A stretch of 64,000 bases of DNA from Bombyx mori. Lineage: Eukaryota; Arthropoda; Insecta; Lepidoptera; Bombycidae. The position numbers were made by a program, and so were the translations under genes. Of the stretch, positions 4,635 to 53,165 are shown one piece after another. The stretch lies in NCBI RefSeq assembly GCF_030269925.1, contig NC_085109.1:6200001-6264000 (forward strand), written 5' to 3'. The notes under the pieces were generated by a model. That model was not told where the DNA came from and did not search any database. It worked only from the letters and a program-made list of their open reading frames with translations. Each line of letters starts with the position of its first letter. Position 1 is the first letter of the stretch.

Positions 4635-4888
4635 TTGTTTTTTTTATTTTTATTGCTTAGATGGGTGGACAAGCTCACAGCCCACCTGATGTTAAGTGGT
4701 TACTGGAGCCCATAGACATCAACAACGTAAATGCGCCACCCACCTTGAGATATAAGTTGTAAGGTCTCAGTATAGTTACAACGGCTGCCCCACCCTTCAA
4801 ACCGAAACGCATTACTGATTCACGGCAGAAATAGGCAGGGCGGTGGTACCTACCCGCGCGGACTCACAACAGGTCCTACCACCAGTAA
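4635..4888 (-). mobile_element. Bm1 SINE, 5'-truncated
   Basis: A T-rich tail at 4635 is followed by the conserved Bm1 tail half and ends at the cctaccaccagtaa boundary. The tRNA-like head is missing. Few differences from the consensus-like copies suggest a fairly young insertion. Confidence 0.92.
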
Positions 4889-17267: not shown

Positions 17268-20150
17268 TTAGGTTGCACGTCGACCTCTTTGTCGAGTTCG
17301 ACGAGTACGGTTACCGGGGTCCCTAAGCCTGCCCCTAGTATTAGAGCTGAAGGCATCTAATGCAAATGTTATTGGATCTGATGGATCCGTAAGGACGTGT
17401 CTAGGGCGTCGACGGTGACTGGCTCCTGCATGATCAGGATTCGGGGAGTAGTCAGCGGCGGCAACGATAAGGCGATTATCATGACGCATAGCCTTATCGA
17501 AGTATCGTTCCGACGCTGACTTCATGTATTTCCGAATTGATTCGAGGCCCAGGTCGTCGTGTAGGTCAACGTTCCTCACGAACCACGGAGCCCCGACAGC
17601 TAACCTGCAAAAGCGGGATTGTAGGGATTGGAGGGTGTCTATGTGTGTGCGGGCCGCGTGAGCGAACACCACACTCGCGTAAGTCATGACGGGCCTTATG
17701 CAAGTTTTGTAAAGTGTCACCTTGTTCCGAAGGGACATTTTACTCCGCTTACAGATCATGGGGTAGAGTCTACCGAGAATAAACGCGGCACGGTCACGGA
17801 CTGATTTTATATGCGGGCGGAATGTCATCGATGCATCCAGGGTAACGCCCAGGTACTTGACCTTCCTGGCCCAGGGTATGGGTTGTCTAAAGAGATTAAT
17901 CGGGGGTGTGAGATTCCTCCTCCTAATCCGGGAGGAAATCCGTGTGGAGCTTCCCCTCTGAAATAGCACCGCAGTACTTTTCGCTGGGTTGATGTCTATG
18001 CGCCATTTTCGGAACCACTGTCCTAGGGCTAGGGCTGCGCTCTGAAGCTTCTTCGCGATTAGGGACTTATTTCTACTAGAATAGTAAACAGTCGTGTCGT
18101 CGGCGAATAAAGCTAAATGGGTCGGCGGCGACCGGGGAATATCGTTGACGAATAAGCTAAATAGGAGGGGTGAGAGGACAGAGCCTTGCGGGACTCCAGC
18201 TGTGAGAGGTCGTGGGGAGGAGCGGGTTCCCTCGACTCGATATCGAAAAGAGCGGTTCGACAAGAAGTCCCGTATGATGAGCACGAGACTATCCGGCACG
18301 CCCATGTTGAATAGTTTGAAAATCAAACCATTGTGCCAGACTTTGTCGAACGCTTTTGCGACGTCGAAGAAGAGAGCTCCCGTGTATAACGGTTTTGGTC
18401 GATTAAGCCCCACAAGAATGTGCTCCGTGAGGCGGTGCACCTGTTGAACGCATGAGTGATTTGTACGGAATCCGAATTGTTCATCGATAAGAATGCCCTT
18501 GGATGAGACGAAGTCTCTGAGGCGTTTGTAGAGCAGACGCTCATACAGTTTGCCTAGAGACATGAGGAGGCTAATCGGGCGGTAGCTCGTCGGATCATTT
18601 TTTGGTTTACCGGGTTTATGTATGCCGATAACGTCCGCTTCTTTCCACACCGCGGGAAAGATACAGTTCGCCATAGCGGCATTGAAAATAGATGCCAACA
18701 TCACGATGAGTTGGACGGGTAGAAGTTTAATAACGCGGTTAGATATACCGTCGGAACCGGGAGCCTTGCGAGGACGTAGGTCTTTGATCAAGTCTTTAAC
18801 TTCCATCGGGGTGACGGGTGGTAACGCATCCGAGGGTGGCAAGGAGGCTCTGCGTTCTACCTCACTGTCTACTAATTCTACATGTACAGGGTCCACGGAT
18901 TGAGTGCTGGGCGTGCACTGGGTTTGCAATGTATCGGCCAGCAGCTCTGCTTTTTCGTCATCATCGAACGCCGCGAGTCGGCCTGAGGGGCCTACGAGGG
19001 GGGGCATAGTTACTACCGTATCCGATTTGAGAGTACGAGCTAAGCGGTAGTAAGACCTTTGGGAGGGCGCGAGTCCTTCTAAGAAATCAGACCATCTGGC
19101 ATCTCGGACTTCGGCGATGCGAGACTTTACGTCGCGTTGTAGGGCACGCATTCGAATACGATTTTCCGCGGTAGGATACCTGTCGTAGGCGCGTATCGAG
19201 GCGTTCTTAGCTCTAAGAAGTTCCCTAATATCGTCGGACAATTTGAAGCGGTGAAGGAAGTCCTCCGCTACAACTTGTTTCGATGACCTATCTAATGTCG
19301 AGGTGATGTGTGACGTTAAGATGTCTATGGCTTCAGCGGTATCCTGAGGAGACGGGATAGAGTCCGGGTTAAACGGGAGCGATGGTGGATCAGATTCAGC
19401 CAGGCTGATGCCCAGCGTGTGCCAATCCACCACAGTCCTCGTGACGGGAACGGAATCGGGAGCGCGACCGAGCTTCATAACGACGGGACGGTGGTCTGAA
19501 TCTAACTCTGAAACTACTTCGATCGAGTGTAAGCGCAGAGTTACGTTTTTTAATAACGCTATGTCGAGTATATCCGGGCGATGCGCGATATTTAGCGGGT
19601 AGTGAGTCGGGGTTAGCGGAGCGACGATATCGAAGGCGAGATCATCGACTAACGCGTCAAGCCGCCTGCCATTCGGGGTTGTGGTGTGTGAGTTCCACCT
19701 GATGTGTTTACAATTTAGGTCGCCCGCCAGAATGACAGAGCTCCCCATACCGAGCAGCGCCTCGATATCACTGCTTAGAACGATCTTATCCGGTGGAAGA
19801 TAAACGGACGCGATAACGATCGGCGCGTGTCCCGTTAGTGAGATTCGGCACACTGATGCTTCGATATTAGCGAGCGCGGGAGGATCGAGCGGGACGCAAT
19901 GCAGGGCTCTTCTATAGTAAATGACGGTACCACCACCACGGGCAGAGAGCCTGTCGTTCCTGACCATGTTATAGTTCGCGATTTTAGGGTCACGGCGCGC
20001 GGGCTTAAGTAGGGTCTCCTGCACTAAAAAGATATCAATTTGGTGGTCACGCAAAAACTCAGAAACCTGATCACATTGATTTGCGAGACCGTAAGCGTTA
20101 AAAAATCCTATCGTTACGGATAGGGGCTTTATTCTACTTATATACGCCAT
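17268..20150 (-). CDS. LINE ORF2: endonuclease and reverse transcriptase
   Basis: An intact 960-residue polyprotein for target-primed reverse transcription. Residues about 11-225 form an APE-type endonuclease: FFNAYGL with N18, LVQET with E45, ILAGDLNCKHIRWNS, LDIAL, and SDHRPV with the catalytic DH. The reverse transcriptase follows: RKAPGSDGIS, YRPISLLMSLGKLYERLL, FFDVAKAFDKVWH, GVPQGSVLSPLLFSLFVND, and the catalytic LALFADDTTVYYS, then KYLGVTLDASMTF in the thumb region. No RNase H domain is seen. The protein acts in the nucleus, nicking target DNA and copying LINE (or SINE) RNA. There are no internal stops or frameshifts, and all key residues checked are present, so the enzyme may be active. 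The ATG lies just after the ORF1 stop, suggesting termination-reinitiation. Confidence 0.95.
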   Translation of the reverse strand: MAYISRIKPLSVTIGFFNAYGLANQCDQVSEFLRDHQIDIFLVQETLLKPARRDPKIANYNMVRNDRLSARGGGTVIYYRRALHCVPLDPPALANIEASVCRISLTGHAPIVIASVYLPPDKIVLSSDIEALLGMGSSVILAGDLNCKHIRWNSHTTTPNGRRLDALVDDLAFDIVAPLTPTHYPLNIAHRPDILDIALLKNVTLRLHSIEVVSELDSDHRPVVMKLGRAPDSVPVTRTVVDWHTLGISLAESDPPSLPFNPDSIPSPQDTAEAIDILTSHITSTLDRSSKQVVAEDFLHRFKLSDDIRELLRAKNASIRAYDRYPTAENRIRMRALQRDVKSRIAEVRDARWSDFLEGLAPSQRSYYRLARTLKSDTVVTMPPLVGPSGRLAAFDDDEKAELLADTLQTQCTPSTQSVDPVHVELVDSEVERRASLPPSDALPPVTPMEVKDLIKDLRPRKAPGSDGISNRVIKLLPVQLIVMLASIFNAAMANCIFPAVWKEADVIGIHKPGKPKNDPTSYRPISLLMSLGKLYERLLYKRLRDFVSSKGILIDEQFGFRTNHSCVQQVHRLTEHILVGLNRPKPLYTGALFFDVAKAFDKVWHNGLIFKLFNMGVPDSLVLIIRDFLSNRSFRYRVEGTRSSPRPLTAGVPQGSVLSPLLFSLFVNDIPRSPPTHLALFADDTTVYYSSRNKSLIAKKLQSAALALGQWFRKWRIDINPAKSTAVLFQRGSSTRISSRIRRRNLTPPINLFRQPIPWARKVKYLGVTLDASMTFRPHIKSVRDRAAFILGRLYPMICKRSKMSLRNKVTLYKTCIRPVMTYASVVFAHAARTHIDTLQSLQSRFCRLAVGAPWFVRNVDLHDDLGLESIRKYMKSASERYFDKAMRHDNRLIVAAADYSPNPDHAGASHRRRPRHVLTDPSDPITFALDAFSSNTRGRLRDPGNRTRRTRQRGRRAT

Positions 20151-20153
20151 TGA

Positions 20154-21274
20154 TTACCGGCGGAGTGAGGGGAGGACGTACGTATTTAATGACGCGTATA
20201 CGTCGGCGTATTCCTGCACAACGGCGATAAAGTGTTGTGCAGTGGAGGCAGCGCGAATGGCGTCGCCCAAAGCGTTAACGCGCTCAAAGTTGATCGACTG
20301 AAAGAAGTCGATCGCTAAAGCGAGATTGTCGGACGCGGTCGGAGGGCAAGTCGCGGGAGAGGGACGAGTCGCGGGGGCGGGACGAATCGCGGAGGAGGGA
20401 GTTGTAGCCGTGTTCGTGTACGGCAGCGGTTTTGCCCAGGCCGAGACACTGGGCACCGCCGCCGGAACGAACGCTGGCTTAGCCTGCGACGCAGAGGGTG
20501 CCGAGGCTTTGATGTCTGGACCGGTGTCCAGTGGTCGTCGGGTGTTTGAACCTTAATTTGAATGCCGTTCGCGAGGTTACGGGCATTCGTGAAATTTATA
20601 TTTTTGGCCTTAAGGGCCAGGCAAACTCGATCCCAAGCTGCCTTCTCCTGAAGGATAACCGGGGGAGGGGTCTGGGTTTTATTTTGTGCCACCGGACGCG
20701 GCGACGGAGTGGCACGGGCTGGGGGCGCAACGGGAGTCTGAGGGCGGGGGCGCGACGCGTTCACGGCTTTGCTAATTTTAGCGGCCGCGGGAGCTCGAGA
20801 CTCCGCGGCACGCTTCTTACCCTTCTGTACCAGGGTGAATCCATCCGTCGATGAGGCGGGGGCGAGGTCGACCTCCATGTCCGAGTCAGAGTCGGAGCAC
20901 GAGGAGGCGGGTGCAGGCGACCTACGAGCAAGTGTAGGTGTTTTAGAGGGCGCGACGGACGCCGCGGATGATCGCTCAGCTGAAACGATGGTCACGGCGG
21001 ACGACGCAGCAGCTTTTCTCGCCAGTATAGGCGACACGGGAGCGGCAGGCACGACAGAGGCTGCGGTGCTCAATGCAGAAGCTCTGCACGCAGGTACAGG
21101 CGACGCAGGAGCAGCGAGCGCGGCGGAGTCCTCGAGAGGGCTCGCAGTGTGATTGGCCTTGAAGGCCAGAAACTCTGAGGCGAGCTGTGGGTGGCGAAGT
21201 CGGAGGAATTCCGCGAATACAGCGTCCATGATCGCTGAGTACCCAGGTGGGGCGGCCCCGGGTCTTGAAAACAC
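20154..21274 (-). pseudogene. LINE ORF1 (gag-like), internally deleted and frameshifted
   Basis: ORF1 proteins of this group bind the LINE RNA through a PRE_C2HC region and CCHC zinc knuckles. Here the N-terminal 240 or so residues are present (FAEFLRLRHPQLASEFLAF, a Ser/Ala/Pro-rich linker, then AWDRVCLALKAKNINFTNAR, the start of the PRE_C2HC-like part). At about 20518-20535 the sequence jumps and changes frame. The C-terminal part continues in another frame (20456 to 20154), ending FFQSINFERVNALGDAIR and FIAVVQEYADVYASLN, a characteristic ORF1 C-terminus. No CCHC knuckle is present in either frame, so the deletion removed the nucleic-acid-binding core. The broken frame reads on into Arg/Pro-rich sequence to 20315. 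The exact deletion length cannot be given without a related intact copy. Confidence 0.85.
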
Positions 21275-22921: not shown

Positions 22922-23370
22922 TTTTTTTTTTTTTTTTATTGCTTAGATTTGTGGACGAGCTCACAGCCCACCTGGTGTTAAGTGGTTACTGGAGCCCATA
23001 GACATCTACAACGTAAATGCGCCACACATCTTGAGATATAGTTCTAAGGTCTCAGTATAGTCACAACGGCTGCCCCACCCTTCAAACCGAAACGCATTAC
23101 TGCTTCACGGCAGAAATAGGTGGGGCGGTGGTACCTACCCGTGCGGACTCACAAGAGGTCCTACCACCAGTAATTACGCAAATTATAATTTTGCGGGTTT
23201 TGATTTTTACTGCACGATGTTATTCCTTCACCGTGGAAGTCAATCGTGAACATTTGTTGGGTACGTATTTCATTAGAATAATTGGTACCCGCCAGCGAGA
23301 TTCGAACACCGGTGCATCGCTCGATACGAATGCACCGGACGTCTTATCCTTTAGGCCACGACGACTTCAA
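22922..23370 (-). mobile_element. full-length Bm1 SINE
   Basis: From the plus-strand left: T-run, conserved tail half, central block, and the head with a degenerate B box (gattcgaacac on this strand) and taaggcc-like A box, ending near ctttaggccacgacgactt. About 449 bp. Low divergence. Confidence 0.92.
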
Positions 23371-45348: not shown

Positions 45349-45806
45349 TTTTTTTTTTTTTTTATTGCTTATATGGGTGGATGAGCTCACAGCTCACTTG
45401 GTGTTAAGTGGTTACTGGAGCCCATGGACATCTACAACGTAAATGCGCCACCCACCTTGAGATATAAGTTCATATAAGTTCTAAAGATCTCAGTATAGTT
45501 ACAACGGCTGCCCCCACCCTTCAAACCGAAACGCATTACTGCTTCACGGCAGAAATAGACAGGGCGGTGGTACCTACCCGCGCGGACTCACAAGAGGTCC
45601 TACCACCAGTAATTACGCAAATTATACTTTTGCGGGTTTCACTTTTATTACACGATGTTATTCCTTCACCGTGGAAGTCAATCGTGAACATTTGTTGAGT
45701 ACGTAATTCATCAGAAAAATTGGTACCCGCCTGAGATTCGAACACCGGTGCATCGCTCAACACGAATGCACCGGACGTCTTATCTCTTAGGCCACGACGA
45801 CTTCAA
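45349..45806 (-). mobile_element. full-length Bm1 SINE
   Basis: T-run, tail half (with a short catataagtt duplication at about 45470), central block, and the head with gagattcgaacaccgg and cttaggccacgacgac. About 458 bp, the longest copy here. Confidence 0.92.
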
Positions 45807-48435: not shown

Positions 48436-48550
48436 CCTAATTGAAGGGTGGGACAGCCCTAATACGATATAATGAAGATTTAGACTTTATGTCTCAGACG
48501 GGTATCGGAATTCACGTCGTGACGTCTCCGAACTCCGACTAAATAAAGCT
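48436..48550 (+). repeat. decayed Bm1 fragment
   Basis: gaagggtgggacagcccta ... tctcagacgggtatcggaat matches the Bm1 tail half in order, heavily diverged. Confidence 0.55.
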
Positions 48551-48750
48551 AACAAAAAGATTTTTTCAACTAACACGGTTAAACGTGTTTTCAGAATAGT
48601 AAAGTGCCGTTATGATGAGCGTTTAGTAAAAAAATATATCGTGCAACAAACTGTCTAATCACGTATCATATATGAACGTTATAGAAAACGATACGCCTAA
48701 GGGTTTCTACCAATTTCTGGTTAAATACCGTTGATCGCATAACAATTAAC

Positions 48751-49020
48751 GGCCGTCTGGTGTAGTGGTAAGTGACATGGTCACTACACAAGGGGGTCGC
48801 GGGTTCGAATCCCGCCAAGGGAAGATATTTGTATGATAAATATAAATGTATTTTCCAGGGTTATGGATGTATATTAAATATGTGTATGTGTATAATAAAA
48901 ATCTTATATTTATTTCCGTTATCTGGTATCTGTAACACAAGTTCTTTACGAACTTATCACGGGACCAGTTAACGTGGCGTGACTGTTAGTAAATATTTAT
49001 TTATTTACTTAAAAAAATAA
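48751..49020 (+). mobile_element. second SINE family with tRNA-like head
   Basis: The head has an A box tggtgtagtgg (48758-48768) and B box ggttcgaatcc (48802-48812), ideal RNA polymerase III promoter elements. The body continues gatatttgtatgataaata and ttctttacgaacttatcac and ends in a tttattta-type tail. About 270 bp. The head is not a functional tRNA gene, because ggccgtc at its 5' end cannot pair with the 3' arm (aagggaa). Confidence 0.82.
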
Positions 49021-49541
49021 AATAAAAATTGCATAATTACTGTTTATAACTGAAATGATTTGGCTCTTATAAAAAACTATCTTGAGCATTGAGACTTAAA
49101 GATAAATGACTTGCGCCGTTTAGACAATGTGCGATGATAAATTTGTTATCAGTCTACAAACCACACATACATATAAATGGAATATAAATCAATTAGCTAA
49201 CGAAGTTTATCAAAGACATAATTGATTGCCAAATACTAATAACTTATCTTAAAAATCTAAAGCGATATATTTATTGAAAACTAGCTGACCCGGCAGACTT
49301 CGCAGTGCCTCAATCGATAAATAAAAGACCTAAACTTTTGTATTCGACGGGGGACATATCAAAGGAAAAACAAAATTATTATTTTTATTTAATTCCGAGC
49401 ATTTTCATATTTATCTACCTTTTAAACCTTCTCTGGACTTCCTCTTCTCTGGACAAATAATTCAACACCAAAATTTGCCAAATCGGTCCAGCCGTTCTCG
49501 AGTTTTAACGAGACTAACGAACAGTAATTCATTTTTATATA

Positions 49542-50469
49542 CAGGGTGTCCCAGAATGAATGGATAATCTTTGAACCCCGCACGGGACAGCTCTCCAGCA
49601 CTCAGAAAAAAATATCTAAAAAAAAGAATTCCAAGTGATACCCAAAATATGATTTTTTTTAAAAAAACATACGTTATTTTTACTTTACTTCACATTCATG
49701 TGCACAACGGCCACAAAGTTATGAAATTTGTGGTGTTTTTGGTGTCATCTTGTTCCTGATAGACTATACTACTAGAAATACATTAAATAATATAAGTATC
49801 TATGATACTTTTTTCAAAAACAAAATAAGAACTTTAATTTTTAACCTGAAATTGGATACCAAAATAATTTTGGCGTAGTTTGAGAGTGTTTTATGTAAAA
49901 AAAAAGTATGCAAAAGTAAGTGGCCAGCTATTTAAAAAAAATGCGCAGCTCATACAGCTTATAAAATGGTATCATACATCATTTTATCTAATACCACTAC
50001 GAAGTTATTGCTATTGAAATGCAAAAAGAGTAAATACGACTAAAAATAAAAAATAAGTCTTAATAAATTCTAATAATAATAAAAAAAATCGGGTGTACAT
50101 AAATCAAGCTTTATTCACAACAGGTGTTCAAGTTGTCTGCCACCGACTCTAATACACGCTCGACATCTTCTATTAGAGGCTCTACTAAGATAACGTCCAT
50201 AGCGTTGTTTATTTGGAACGGTCAAAATGGGACCCAAACGACCAATCCATTTATTTGGATACGTGGCATTTAAATAAGAAGGGACGTTTGTACCATAATG
50301 TGCAGGACAGCCATCATTCTGTAGCCAATGGGATTCCCTTACCTTCTCAGGCACTTTTTCCACTAAGTTCAGGAGATCATTTTGCAAAACATTTAAATAA
50401 TTATGAGAAGATAAATTTACCGGCAGTTCGAAAGGACCAATTATCCCGTTCAATATACCAGTCCAATAA
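49542..50469 (-). repeat. foldback left arm, 928 bp
   Basis: Minus-strand translation of 50453 to 50115 gives GPFELPVNLSSHNYLN, KVRESHWLQNDGCPAHYGTN and PNKWIGRLGPI, the transposase C-terminal half. The frame then shifts at the same deletion as in the right arm. The outer 550 bp is AT-rich 3' flank. Confidence 0.92.
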
Positions 50470-50505
50470 GTCTTAATTATTGATCATGCCAATACTCAAG
50501 ACATT

Positions 50506-51470
50506 GTGCTTGACGAAATTCAGCAAGACCCCTCTGTAAGAACAATATCACGGCGTACTGGAATCCCGAAAACGACCGTGCACCGTGTACTGAAAATAAA
50601 TAAATATCATCCTTACCATATTAGACGCGTCCAAGCTCTGCAACCGAGAGATTACAATGCAAGATGGTTTTGTTGTCGGCAAATGCTTGCAAAAATAGAA
50701 GAAGATCCACAATTCTTTGGAAAAATTCTATGGAGCAACGAATCTACTTTAAAAAAAGACGGATACTTTAATATCGACGCTTGAAAGGCAAACGTGTCTA
50801 AGCGACAATAACTGCTTTGTACATAAATGATAGGCAATAACCATATTCGATGCGCAAAAAAAAAATATTTCTAGGTATATTAAAATAATTTCAATCCTAC
50901 AGCTACTAGCTAGATTCTACTACAGCTAGATTCGTTTAAATAAATTTTGTTTTCAGGTATTTCAACTTTAAATTAGTCTACTGTAAAGTTCACGCATTGT
51001 CGCTTAGTCACGTTTGTCTTTCAAGCGTCGATATGCATAATCTGCACAGCTGACAACTCTCGAATCCAAATTTAATGCGAGAAGAGAGGTCGCAATACCA
51101 GTTCAAAGCAAATTATTGGACTGGTATATTAAACGGGATAATTATTGGTCCTTTCGAATTGCCGGCAAATTTATCTTCTCATACTTATTTAAATTTTATG
51201 CAAAATGATCTCCTGAACTTAGTGGAAAAAGTGCCTGAGAAGGTAAAGGAATCCCATTGGCTACAGAATGATGGCTGTCCTGCACATTATGGTACAAACG
51301 TCCCTTCTTATTTAAATGCCACGTATCCAAATAAATGGATTGGTCGTTTGGGTCCCATTTTGACCGTTCCAAATAAACAACGCTATGGACGTTATCTTAG
51401 TAGAGCCTCTAATAGAAGATGTCGAGCGTGTATTAGAGTCGGTGGCAGACAACTTGAACACCTGTTGTGA
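50506..51470 (+). pseudogene. broken transposase gene of the foldback element
   Basis: The plus-strand reading starts in the centre: an HTH (IQQDPSVRTISRRTGIPKTT), then FCCRQMLAKIEEDPQFF and ILWSNES, where the first catalytic Asp is Asn. A MITE interrupts at 50775-51030. The frame resumes (HNLHS, a stop in place of a likely Trp, QLSNPNLMREERSQ) and enters the right arm: YWTGILNG, IGPFELPANLSS, HWLQNDGCPAH with the second Asp, and PNKWIGRLGPI. An internal deletion with frameshift then removes the segment that should contain the third acidic residue. In the other frame the genuine C-terminus is visible (PLIEDVERVLESVADNLN). With four separate lesions it cannot encode an active enzyme. Confidence 0.9.
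50775..51030. mobile_element. MITE nested in the transposase
   Basis: Terminal inverted repeats of 35 bp (50775-50809 and 50996-51030; cgacgcttgaaag...) differ at two positions. The flanks are atat on each side, equivalent to a TA duplication if the TIR starts with T. Excision in silico rejoins the transposase reading frame through FN-MHN. 256 bp, non-coding. Confidence 0.9.
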
Positions 51471-52043
51471 ATAAAGCTTGATTTATGTACACCCGATTTT
51501 TTTTATTATTATTAGAATTTATTAAGACTTATTTTTTATTTTTAGTCGTATTTACTCTTTTTGCATTTCAATAGCAATAACTTCGTAGTGGTATTAGATA
51601 AAATAATGTATGATACCATTTTATAAGCTGTATGAGCTGCGCATTTTTTTTAAATAGCTGGCCACTTACTTTTGCATACTTTTTTTTTACATAAAACACT
51701 CTCAAACTACGCCAAAATTATTTTGGTATCCAATTTCAGGTTAAAAATTAAAGTTCTTATTTTGTTTTTGAAAAAAGTATCATAGATACTTATATTATTT
51801 AATGTATTTCTAGTAGTATAGTCTATCAGGAACAAGATGACACCAAAAACACCACAAATTTCATAACTTTGTGGCCGTTGTGCACATGAATGTGAAGTAA
51901 AGTAAAAATAACGTATGTTTTTCTAAAAAAAATCATATTTTGGGTATTACTTGGAATTCTTTTTTTTAGATATTTTTTTCTGAGCGCTGGAGAGCTCTCC
52001 CGTGCGGGGTTTAAGGATTATCCATTCTTTCTGGGACACCCTG
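51113..52043 (+). repeat. foldback right arm, 931 bp
   Basis: The inverted partner of 49542-50469. It is contiguous with the central transposase sequence, so it is the original 3' half. It carries the C-terminal coding region to about 51470 and then the AT-rich flank ending at the gggacaccctg terminus. Confidence 0.92.
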
Positions 52044-52051
52044 TATATAGA

Positions 52052-52929
52052 TAAATAATCTTCATTCTTAATTTTTAAATCAATAAGGAAATCGTTCAGC
52101 TACAGAAACTGCCACAAGTGGTTGTTGTTTTTCAATGCGTACCTAAACTTGTTGAAAGAAAATAAGGGCTTATACAAACGCAAGGCCATAATCAAGTGCC
52201 TTTTTCAAGAGCCTTTTGTACAGTATTATATTGTTGTCTATGACGTGCTTAATAAGTGCCCTTTATATTAATATATGTACACCTACCGGAACTGCATAAT
52301 CAAAACGGGACAAGTACACCTACAAACTGGAGTAAGGCTGTTTTCTTTAGAACATTATCTTATGAATTATGTATTAATCCGGAATAATGAATCAGTATTA
52401 ACGATGATTTATGTTAGAATAAAAGAGCGCGGACAGAAGAGAATATTGAGCCTAAGTTGATAAGTTGATGGGATAAGATAGCACAAGAGGAATAAAAATA
52501 CCTAAATTATATCTAGATTCTCAGGAAATTGGAAAATTAGGTGGTCGTGGTTGTAACCAAGTTGAACGTATGCAATCTGACATTTGGTACATCCTTATAT
52601 ACAATTCTTCTTTCTGCTAAGAAAAACAATACATTTTTAGATTCTAATAAATCTAAAATATCATGAAAATATTCAAAATTACCAAATCAGTCCCACACAC
52701 CATTACGATTGTGTTACGATACATTGTCATGGACATAATAATCATTAGTCATTGACATCTACTAACTCAAAATCATTATTAAGGTCAGTTTAGACATTTT
52801 GGATAAAAAGTATAGAATACCACCATCCCATTTCTTTTGGTGGGTGCCGTATAAACGCTACCAAGGTATTTAAATTCTTGGAGTATTATAACAGCATAGT
52901 GGTATCGTTAGACTTTAGTCATTCGTTAT
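52052..52929. other. AT-rich spacer
   Basis: No gene seen. Confidence 0.5.
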
Positions 52930-53165
52930 AATTCTGCCTTTTTTGGCGCAAATATGTCATGCATTTCGGTTTGAAATCTGGGAAAGCCATAACTCAATGC
53001 CATTGAGTGTGACTGCGACTGCTTCAAGTGGGGGATTCGAATTTAAAAAAAATATCCAATGTTTTTATTTATTTATTTATTACACTTCATGAAAAATTTA
53101 CATTGGCGGACTTAATGCCTAAAGCATTCTTTACCAGTCAACCAAAGGTAGTGCAGAGTGGATAG
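52930..53165. repeat. decayed Bm1 scrap (+) and LINE/SINE tail (-)
   Basis: About 52930-53000 resembles a decayed Bm1 (atgcatttcggtttgaaatc). 53065-53165 reads tttatttatttatttatt then cattggcggacttaatgcc and ctttaccagtcaacc, which I recognise as a lepidopteran retroelement 3' tail in minus orientation. The class is uncertain. Confidence 0.5.

Follow-up and report, generated by a model that had tools for sequence, protein, structure and literature searches.

A multi-copy foldback family of probable DD41D Tc1/mariner descent in Bombyx mori, with arms evolving together as best explained by gene conversion

Long inverted arms that make up most of the element, a non-autonomous state and the occurrence in several copies are common to the foldback transposons FB, Galileo and Tetris and to the element described here, which lies in a stretch of 64,000 nucleotides of the Bombyx mori genome (NC_085109.1, positions 6,200,001 to 6,264,000; the window). 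The foldbacks of Drosophila belong to the Mutator-like or P superfamily, whereas the parent assigned to the present element is a Tc1/mariner transposon of the DD41D group. Furthermore, Tetris has a target duplication of 8–10 bp, in contrast to TA only here. The arms of FB and Tetris carry sub-repeats, whereas those described here consist of a transposase 3′ end without visible sub-repeat arrays; here, a search of window positions 48500–53000 returned only seven two-copy direct-repeat families of 21–30 nt, although diverged repeats may escape such a search. For two of the three complete Tetris elements, a homogenisation of the arm sub-repeats has been suggested in the available sections of PMC4079207. 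For the element described here, the case for conversion between the arms is built on sites private to single copies and on a tract that could be mapped.

In palindromes of the mammalian Y chromosome, the arms are likewise kept alike by gene conversion. Sex-chromosome palindromes are chromosomal segments and far larger than 2.5 kb, in contrast to the mobile element of 2.5 kb described here. For the sex-chromosome palindromes of willow, gene conversion that keeps the inverted arms alike is described in the accessible text of PMC7023750.

On anatomical grounds, the closest parallel is Mu killer of maize. Both Mu killer, as described in PMC3440606, and the silkworm element are derivatives in which one transposon end occurs twice and a segment of the transposase gene is inverted. 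Mu killer, however, derives from the plant Mutator family, is present at one locus and its silencing activity has been demonstrated, whereas the element described here occurs as several mobile copies, for which silencing would be at most putative.

Within the parent lineage, DD41D elements have been described as rosa and LTIR, and rosa ends such as AAGGGTGTCTC resemble the end CAGGGTGTCCC of the element described here (PMC5490172, available sections). The TA duplication is common to the DD41D elements rosa and LTIR (Lsra) and to the present element. The terminal repeats of LTIR measure about 460 bp in the same sections of PMC5490172, in comparison to 930 bp here, and unlike those of LTIR the 930-bp repeat holds coding sequence from which the third catalytic Asp has been deleted. 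Among the titles and abstract openings surveyed, no description of a DD41D Tc1/mariner foldback in Lepidoptera was present, which does not by itself establish its absence from print.

Structure and descent of the element

The element is a Tc1/mariner-type foldback of 2502 bp (window 49542–52043) with the ends CAGGGTGTCCC. When up to three mismatches are allowed, the 64-kb window contains its 28-bp terminal motif two times, at 49542–49569 (+) and 52016–52043 (−), and the motif was not obtained in any of 100 shuffles. The inverted arms of 928 bp (49542–50469) and 931 bp (51113–52043) are about 98% identical and make up most of the 2502 bp, which is the hallmark of a foldback. Their match extends over 909 nt with 98% identity, followed directly by 31 nt with 97%, and contains one 3-bp gap, and 19 substitutions were counted over 933 compared columns, the last four just outside the arm. 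The TA target duplication is present on the left (49540–49541), where the flank reads TATA and then CAGGG, and on the right (52044–52045), as seen from a comparison of the flanks of the copies. An earlier note on this DNA had described a foldback with near-identical arms of about 930 bp, retaining its ends and the TA duplication on both sides. The arm alignment it had proposed as a check, together with the positions of the terminal motif, confirmed this description with exact coordinates. Two separate insertions facing each other were considered as well and ruled out, since the terminal motif is confined to the two outer ends.

The arm comparison identifies the right arm (51113–52043, +) as the native 3′ end of the transposon and the left arm (49542–50469, −) as its inverted copy. 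Read leftward, the left arm contains a C-terminal piece of the transposase followed by the 3′ noncoding end, and the transposase piece appears as an open frame of 112 aa with an in-frame deletion (50115–50453, −). Between the arms, the middle (50470–51112, +) holds an earlier part of the transposase frame, a nested MITE and the continuation of the frame. The earlier part runs from about residue 73 through the HTH region to the first catalytic motif (50482–50773, +), and the MITE of 258 bp (50774–51031), which the earlier note does not mention, has inverted ends and a TA on both sides. A second open frame of 131 aa (51075–51470, +) spans middle and right arm and encodes the C-terminal transposase with the in-frame deletion. 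At the transposase stop, an AATAAA is present (51470–51475, +), which is mirrored by TTTATT at 50110–50115.

In comparison to full-length relatives, the middle begins near residue 73 and the later parts of the frame persist in it, so that about 73 codons and the 5′ noncoding end are missing. The suggestion that the 5′ half was replaced by an inverted copy of the 3′ half therefore holds with respect to the inverted 3′ copy but not to the extent of the loss, which comprises the 5′ end only. Similarly, the same transposase deletion after WIGRLGPI is indeed present on both window arms, but the frameshift that had been ascribed to it was rejected, since GPILTVPNKQRYGRYLSRASNRRCRACIRVGGRQLEHLL followed by the stop continues in the frame of the relatives on both arms. 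The deletion is thus in frame and, counted by eye, removes about 42 residues after GPIL, the third catalytic Asp among them. Downstream of it, the C-terminus RRCRACIRVGGRQLEHLL is read in frame through to the stop. The first catalytic motif reads ILWSNES in the window copy in comparison to SDES in the four other copies retaining this site; here, an Asn replaces the first catalytic Asp.

Lepidopteran sequences are found among the relatives of the transposase, and the full-length relatives share at most 81% identity with it. A motif pattern matched 42 of 110 proteins (the other 68 were unmatched), and in 42 of these 42 the spacing between the second and the third catalytic Asp is 41 residues. 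Judged from this spacing, the parent is probably a DD41D Tc1/mariner element, a membership that would hold for the foldback by descent only, since its own third Asp is lost. Within Pfam, the N-terminal piece gave HTH_IclR as the only family above the cut-off (23.8 vs. 22 bits), with weaker HTH families including HTH_Tnp_Tc3_2 below it, and no family was assigned to the C-terminal piece. Many of the full-length relatives carry PF01498, PF16087 or PF13358, of which PF01498 is HTH_Tnp_Tc3_2 and PF13358 is DDE_3. In viral contigs, 54 stretches matched the search pattern and none of them encodes a relative.

Copies in the assembly and the nested MITE

A search of the same assembly with the arm gave 46 matches, with the best 40 of 53 candidates scored. 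This search, which the earlier note had proposed as a check, gave five more foldbacks, which were fetched with their flanks and have the same two ends and a TA on both sides. These are located at C3:4189436–4191679 (C3a), C3:2184417–2186922 (C3b), C23:996697–998938, C25:3733442–3735265, which retains little of the middle and has one arm incomplete through loss, and C19:9446076–9448246, where part of the left arm is replaced. Including the window copy, three sites are thus on C3 and one each on C23, C25 and C19. In addition, a half copy is present at C11:7447317–7448258.

All six two-ended copies (6/6) have a TA on both sides, and their flanks differ. The inner left junction around CCAATAAGTCTTAATTATTGATCATG is alike, apart from point differences, in the five copies retaining it and in the half copy. 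The transposase deletion is present in 11 of 13 arm rows, the left arms of C25 and C19 being without that place. All surviving inner junctions resemble each other, so that a single formation of the palindrome, followed by its movement as one unit, is most likely. Such movement, one of two options named in the earlier note, is supported by the TA on both sides, the different flanks and the junction. On the contrary, the proposal that the deletion came before the palindrome is not forced, because conversion between the arms could have copied the deletion of one arm to the other; a shared deletion would then predate the amplification only and be compatible with either order relative to the palindrome.

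The left flank of the window copy matches the right flank of C3b with 80% over 280 bp, in opposite orientation and on one side only. A single duplicated locus or an inverted middle was rejected as the cause, since the other side differs, and we take it that the two elements each inserted into a copy of the same dispersed repeat.

The flanks of C3a, C3b and C23 also contain a dispersed repeat with a length of at least about 170 bp, which recurs within the window, for example at 22926–23098, 4637–4813 and 45352–45537. The right flank of C3a has matches to 22 pieces of the window.

The middle without the MITE (50480–50770) was found at seven places, with seven of seven candidates scored. Five of these places are foldbacks, one is the C11 half copy (53 bp) and one is a piece of 42 bp at L028. 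The latter is a diverged, truncated fragment, which keeps the stretch deleted from the foldback arms and represents the best non-foldback arm match with coding sequence (87–91%; best 40 of 53 candidates). Neither the arm search (40 of 53 candidates scored) nor the middle search (7/7) revealed an intact or active target element. Within the reach of these searches, whose counts are lower bounds, no form of substantial length other than the foldback thus survives in the assembly. Short end fragments with 92–96% are present at three further places (L027, L029 and L030). Weaker relatives (65–81%) include short elements with inverted ends of about 110 bp as well as L031, with ends that are 80% identical along about 143 bp.

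A further relative of 0.4 kb, L035:1497–1915, matches its own reverse complement over the full length at about 70% and may represent a foldback derivative of greater age within the wider family.

The inverted ends of the nested MITE comprise 39 nt at 95%, TA included. Judged from 35 scored copies elsewhere at 96–98%, which were among the best 40 of 1777 first-look candidates counted for the whole query containing the MITE, it belongs to a numerous family. The window copy and C3b contain the complete MITE, of which C25 retains the right part. The C23 copy (L024) has no MITE about 1230 bases into the copy and shows an extra TTA at the site, together with a neighbouring base that it has in common with the MITE-bearing C25. 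This extra TTA is likely the footprint of an excision of the MITE. At the same site, C3a has one extra A, and C19 is by appearance a plain empty site.

Arm similarity within and between copies

Over the six copies, all from one assembly, 30 copy-private substitutions are shared by the two arms of a copy and 35 are confined to a single arm, private sites being counted only where all other copies agree and more variable or gapped columns being dropped. Parallel mutation would be expected to yield about 0.21 both-arm cases in total. The both-arm and one-arm substitutions number 10 and 9 in the window copy, 2 and 5 in C3a, 2 and 8 in C3b, 2 and 5 in C23, 4 and 0 in C25 and 10 and 8 in C19, where C19 and C25 were compared over 604 and 683 columns, respectively, because one arm is damaged.

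In the window copy, all ten both-arm sites lie at columns 313–767 and all nine one-arm sites at columns ≤121 or ≥798, and the chance of a block this clean is 1.1 × 10⁻⁴. The difference between the arms is 5.6% in columns 1–125, 0.15% in columns 126–797 and 5.5% in columns 798–928, and 0 of 200,000 random placings produced a run of 676 columns in which the arms differ no more than once. At its widest, the putative converted tract covers arm columns 122–797 with one difference between the arms, which corresponds to 49663–50337 in the left arm and to the mirroring 51248–51922 in the right arm. The arms of C25 have no difference over 683 columns and carry four both-arm private variants.

A phylogenetic tree places the left and right arms as sisters with a support of 100/99 in the window copy, C19 and C25, and with 82/91 (core 94/88) in C23. 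The arms of C3a and of C3b are not sisters; here, the right arm of C3b groups with the C11 half copy (87/85), and the core differences of 1.2% in C3a and 1.5% in C3b are no better matched than average. Since C3a and C3b show no sister grouping of their arms and only two both-arm sites each were counted in C3a, C3b and C23, conversion appears unequal among the copies, being strong in three or four of the six and weak in two. An exchange between loci may add to the conversion between arms. Overall, the similarity of the arms fits arm-to-arm gene conversion, and ongoing conversion, which had been named as one possible cause of the arm identity, is favoured by the both-arm private sites, the tract pattern and the tree.

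The structure, the common inner junction, the several TA insertions, the both-arm private variants and the tract pattern are best accounted for by a DD41D foldback that most likely formed once, was mobilised in trans as a unit and has arms that convert each other, to which we assign a probability of roughly 0.85. In a DD41D Tc1/mariner element, the 5′ end would have disappeared and the final 930 bp would have been added a second time in inverted orientation, presumably in a single event via template switch or repair, and the product would contain the same 3′ end twice and no complete transposase. The ends, the TA and the absence of a complete transposase suggest that this unit was subsequently mobilised in trans by cut-and-paste to at least six genome sites. 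The arms, which in the window copy are separated by about 640 bp, may pair via a cruciform or via intra- or sister-chromatid repair and would then convert each other in place. For the window copy this would involve a tract of 455 to 676 bp and leave the remaining differences near the tips and the inner junction. The pattern of variants points to recombination repair as the copying process. Conversion within a copy would have the consequence that the copies diverge from each other while their own arms stay matched.

The same both-arm private variants would be predicted if the foldback had originated separately at each site from different full-length parents, the variants being inherited without any conversion. 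This is very improbable, since copies that retain the respective places agree in both their inner junction and their deletion, and a left/right difference at column 914 is retained in the window copy, C3a, C3b and C23. Furthermore, the middle was found only in five foldbacks, the half copy and one 42-bp fragment (7/7 scored), the nested MITE is whole or partial in three of six copies (window and C3b; right part in C25), and the sharp edges of the window tract would be left unexplained. That the palindrome is very recent and has not undergone conversion would agree with the arm identity of 98%, but is hardly credible at all: copies differ on the same side by 3.0% on average in comparison to 0–2.0% between the arms within a copy, which makes the palindrome older than the split of the copies. 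In addition, the differences along the window arms are not uniformly spread, with 5.5–5.6% at the ends as against 0.15% in the interior.

Long palindromes are hard to assemble, and one of the arms, or the agreement between the two, could have been created by the assembler or by polishing. We consider this very improbable, because the structure is present at six sites with different flanks and with the MITE present or absent, and left/right differences are kept in five of six copies, C25 having none. Moreover, an averaging of reads would not be expected to yield both-arm, copy-private changes limited to one tract.

If the single origin followed by arm conversion is correct, the copies represent a natural replicate experiment on inverted-repeat recombination in a mobile element. 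The DD41D lineage would reveal which end was copied, what went missing and that the element spread later, and the conversion tract would be mappable and comparable between sites and strains.

Putative role as a source of double-stranded RNA

Compatible with the conversion reading, the element may act as a source of dsRNA that silences its own transposase family in a manner similar to Mu killer. This role appears unlikely. In its favour, the folding of a complete transcript of the plus strand is computed to give 917 arm-arm pairs, and the anatomy resembles that of Mu killer in the doubled end and the inverted transposase portion (PMC3440606). However, an AATAAA is present in each arm (51470, +; mirror at 50110–50115), which would limit the read-through hairpin to about 373 pairs for a transcript ending 20 nt past the AATAAA by the transposase stop. 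Apart from the 42-bp fragment at L028, the middle was found in no non-foldback copy (7/7 candidates scored). Across the 16 loci that were fetched, 21-mers from the coding sequence of the arms were found only in the five foldbacks, the half copy and L028 (40 matches). Those of the noncoding arm are also present in L027, L029, L030 and L032–L035, with 8 to 89 each. The polyA signals and the lack of the middle in non-foldback copies thus weaken the putative siRNA role. The parallel itself is affected too, since in its available sections PMC3440606 shifted from the hairpin model toward short antisense transcripts for Mu killer: the plants in which silencing takes place show two short antisense transcripts and not the proposed long hairpin, while a minor longer transcript is left possible.

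A related and doubtful extension of the conversion reading is that the foldback has outlived its parent and, as the sole sizeable remnant of this transposase segment in the genome, now forms a separate family, which depends on another transposase for its movement and on conversion between the arms for its palindromic shape. It would then be a lasting source of dsRNA that targets little but itself and, if this were true, a self-limiting mobile element.

Elsewhere in the window, an open frame of 960 aa at 17268–20150 (−) is reverse transcriptase-like by eye, and another open frame at 20315–21274 precedes it. By appearance, the two together are a non-LTR retrotransposon.
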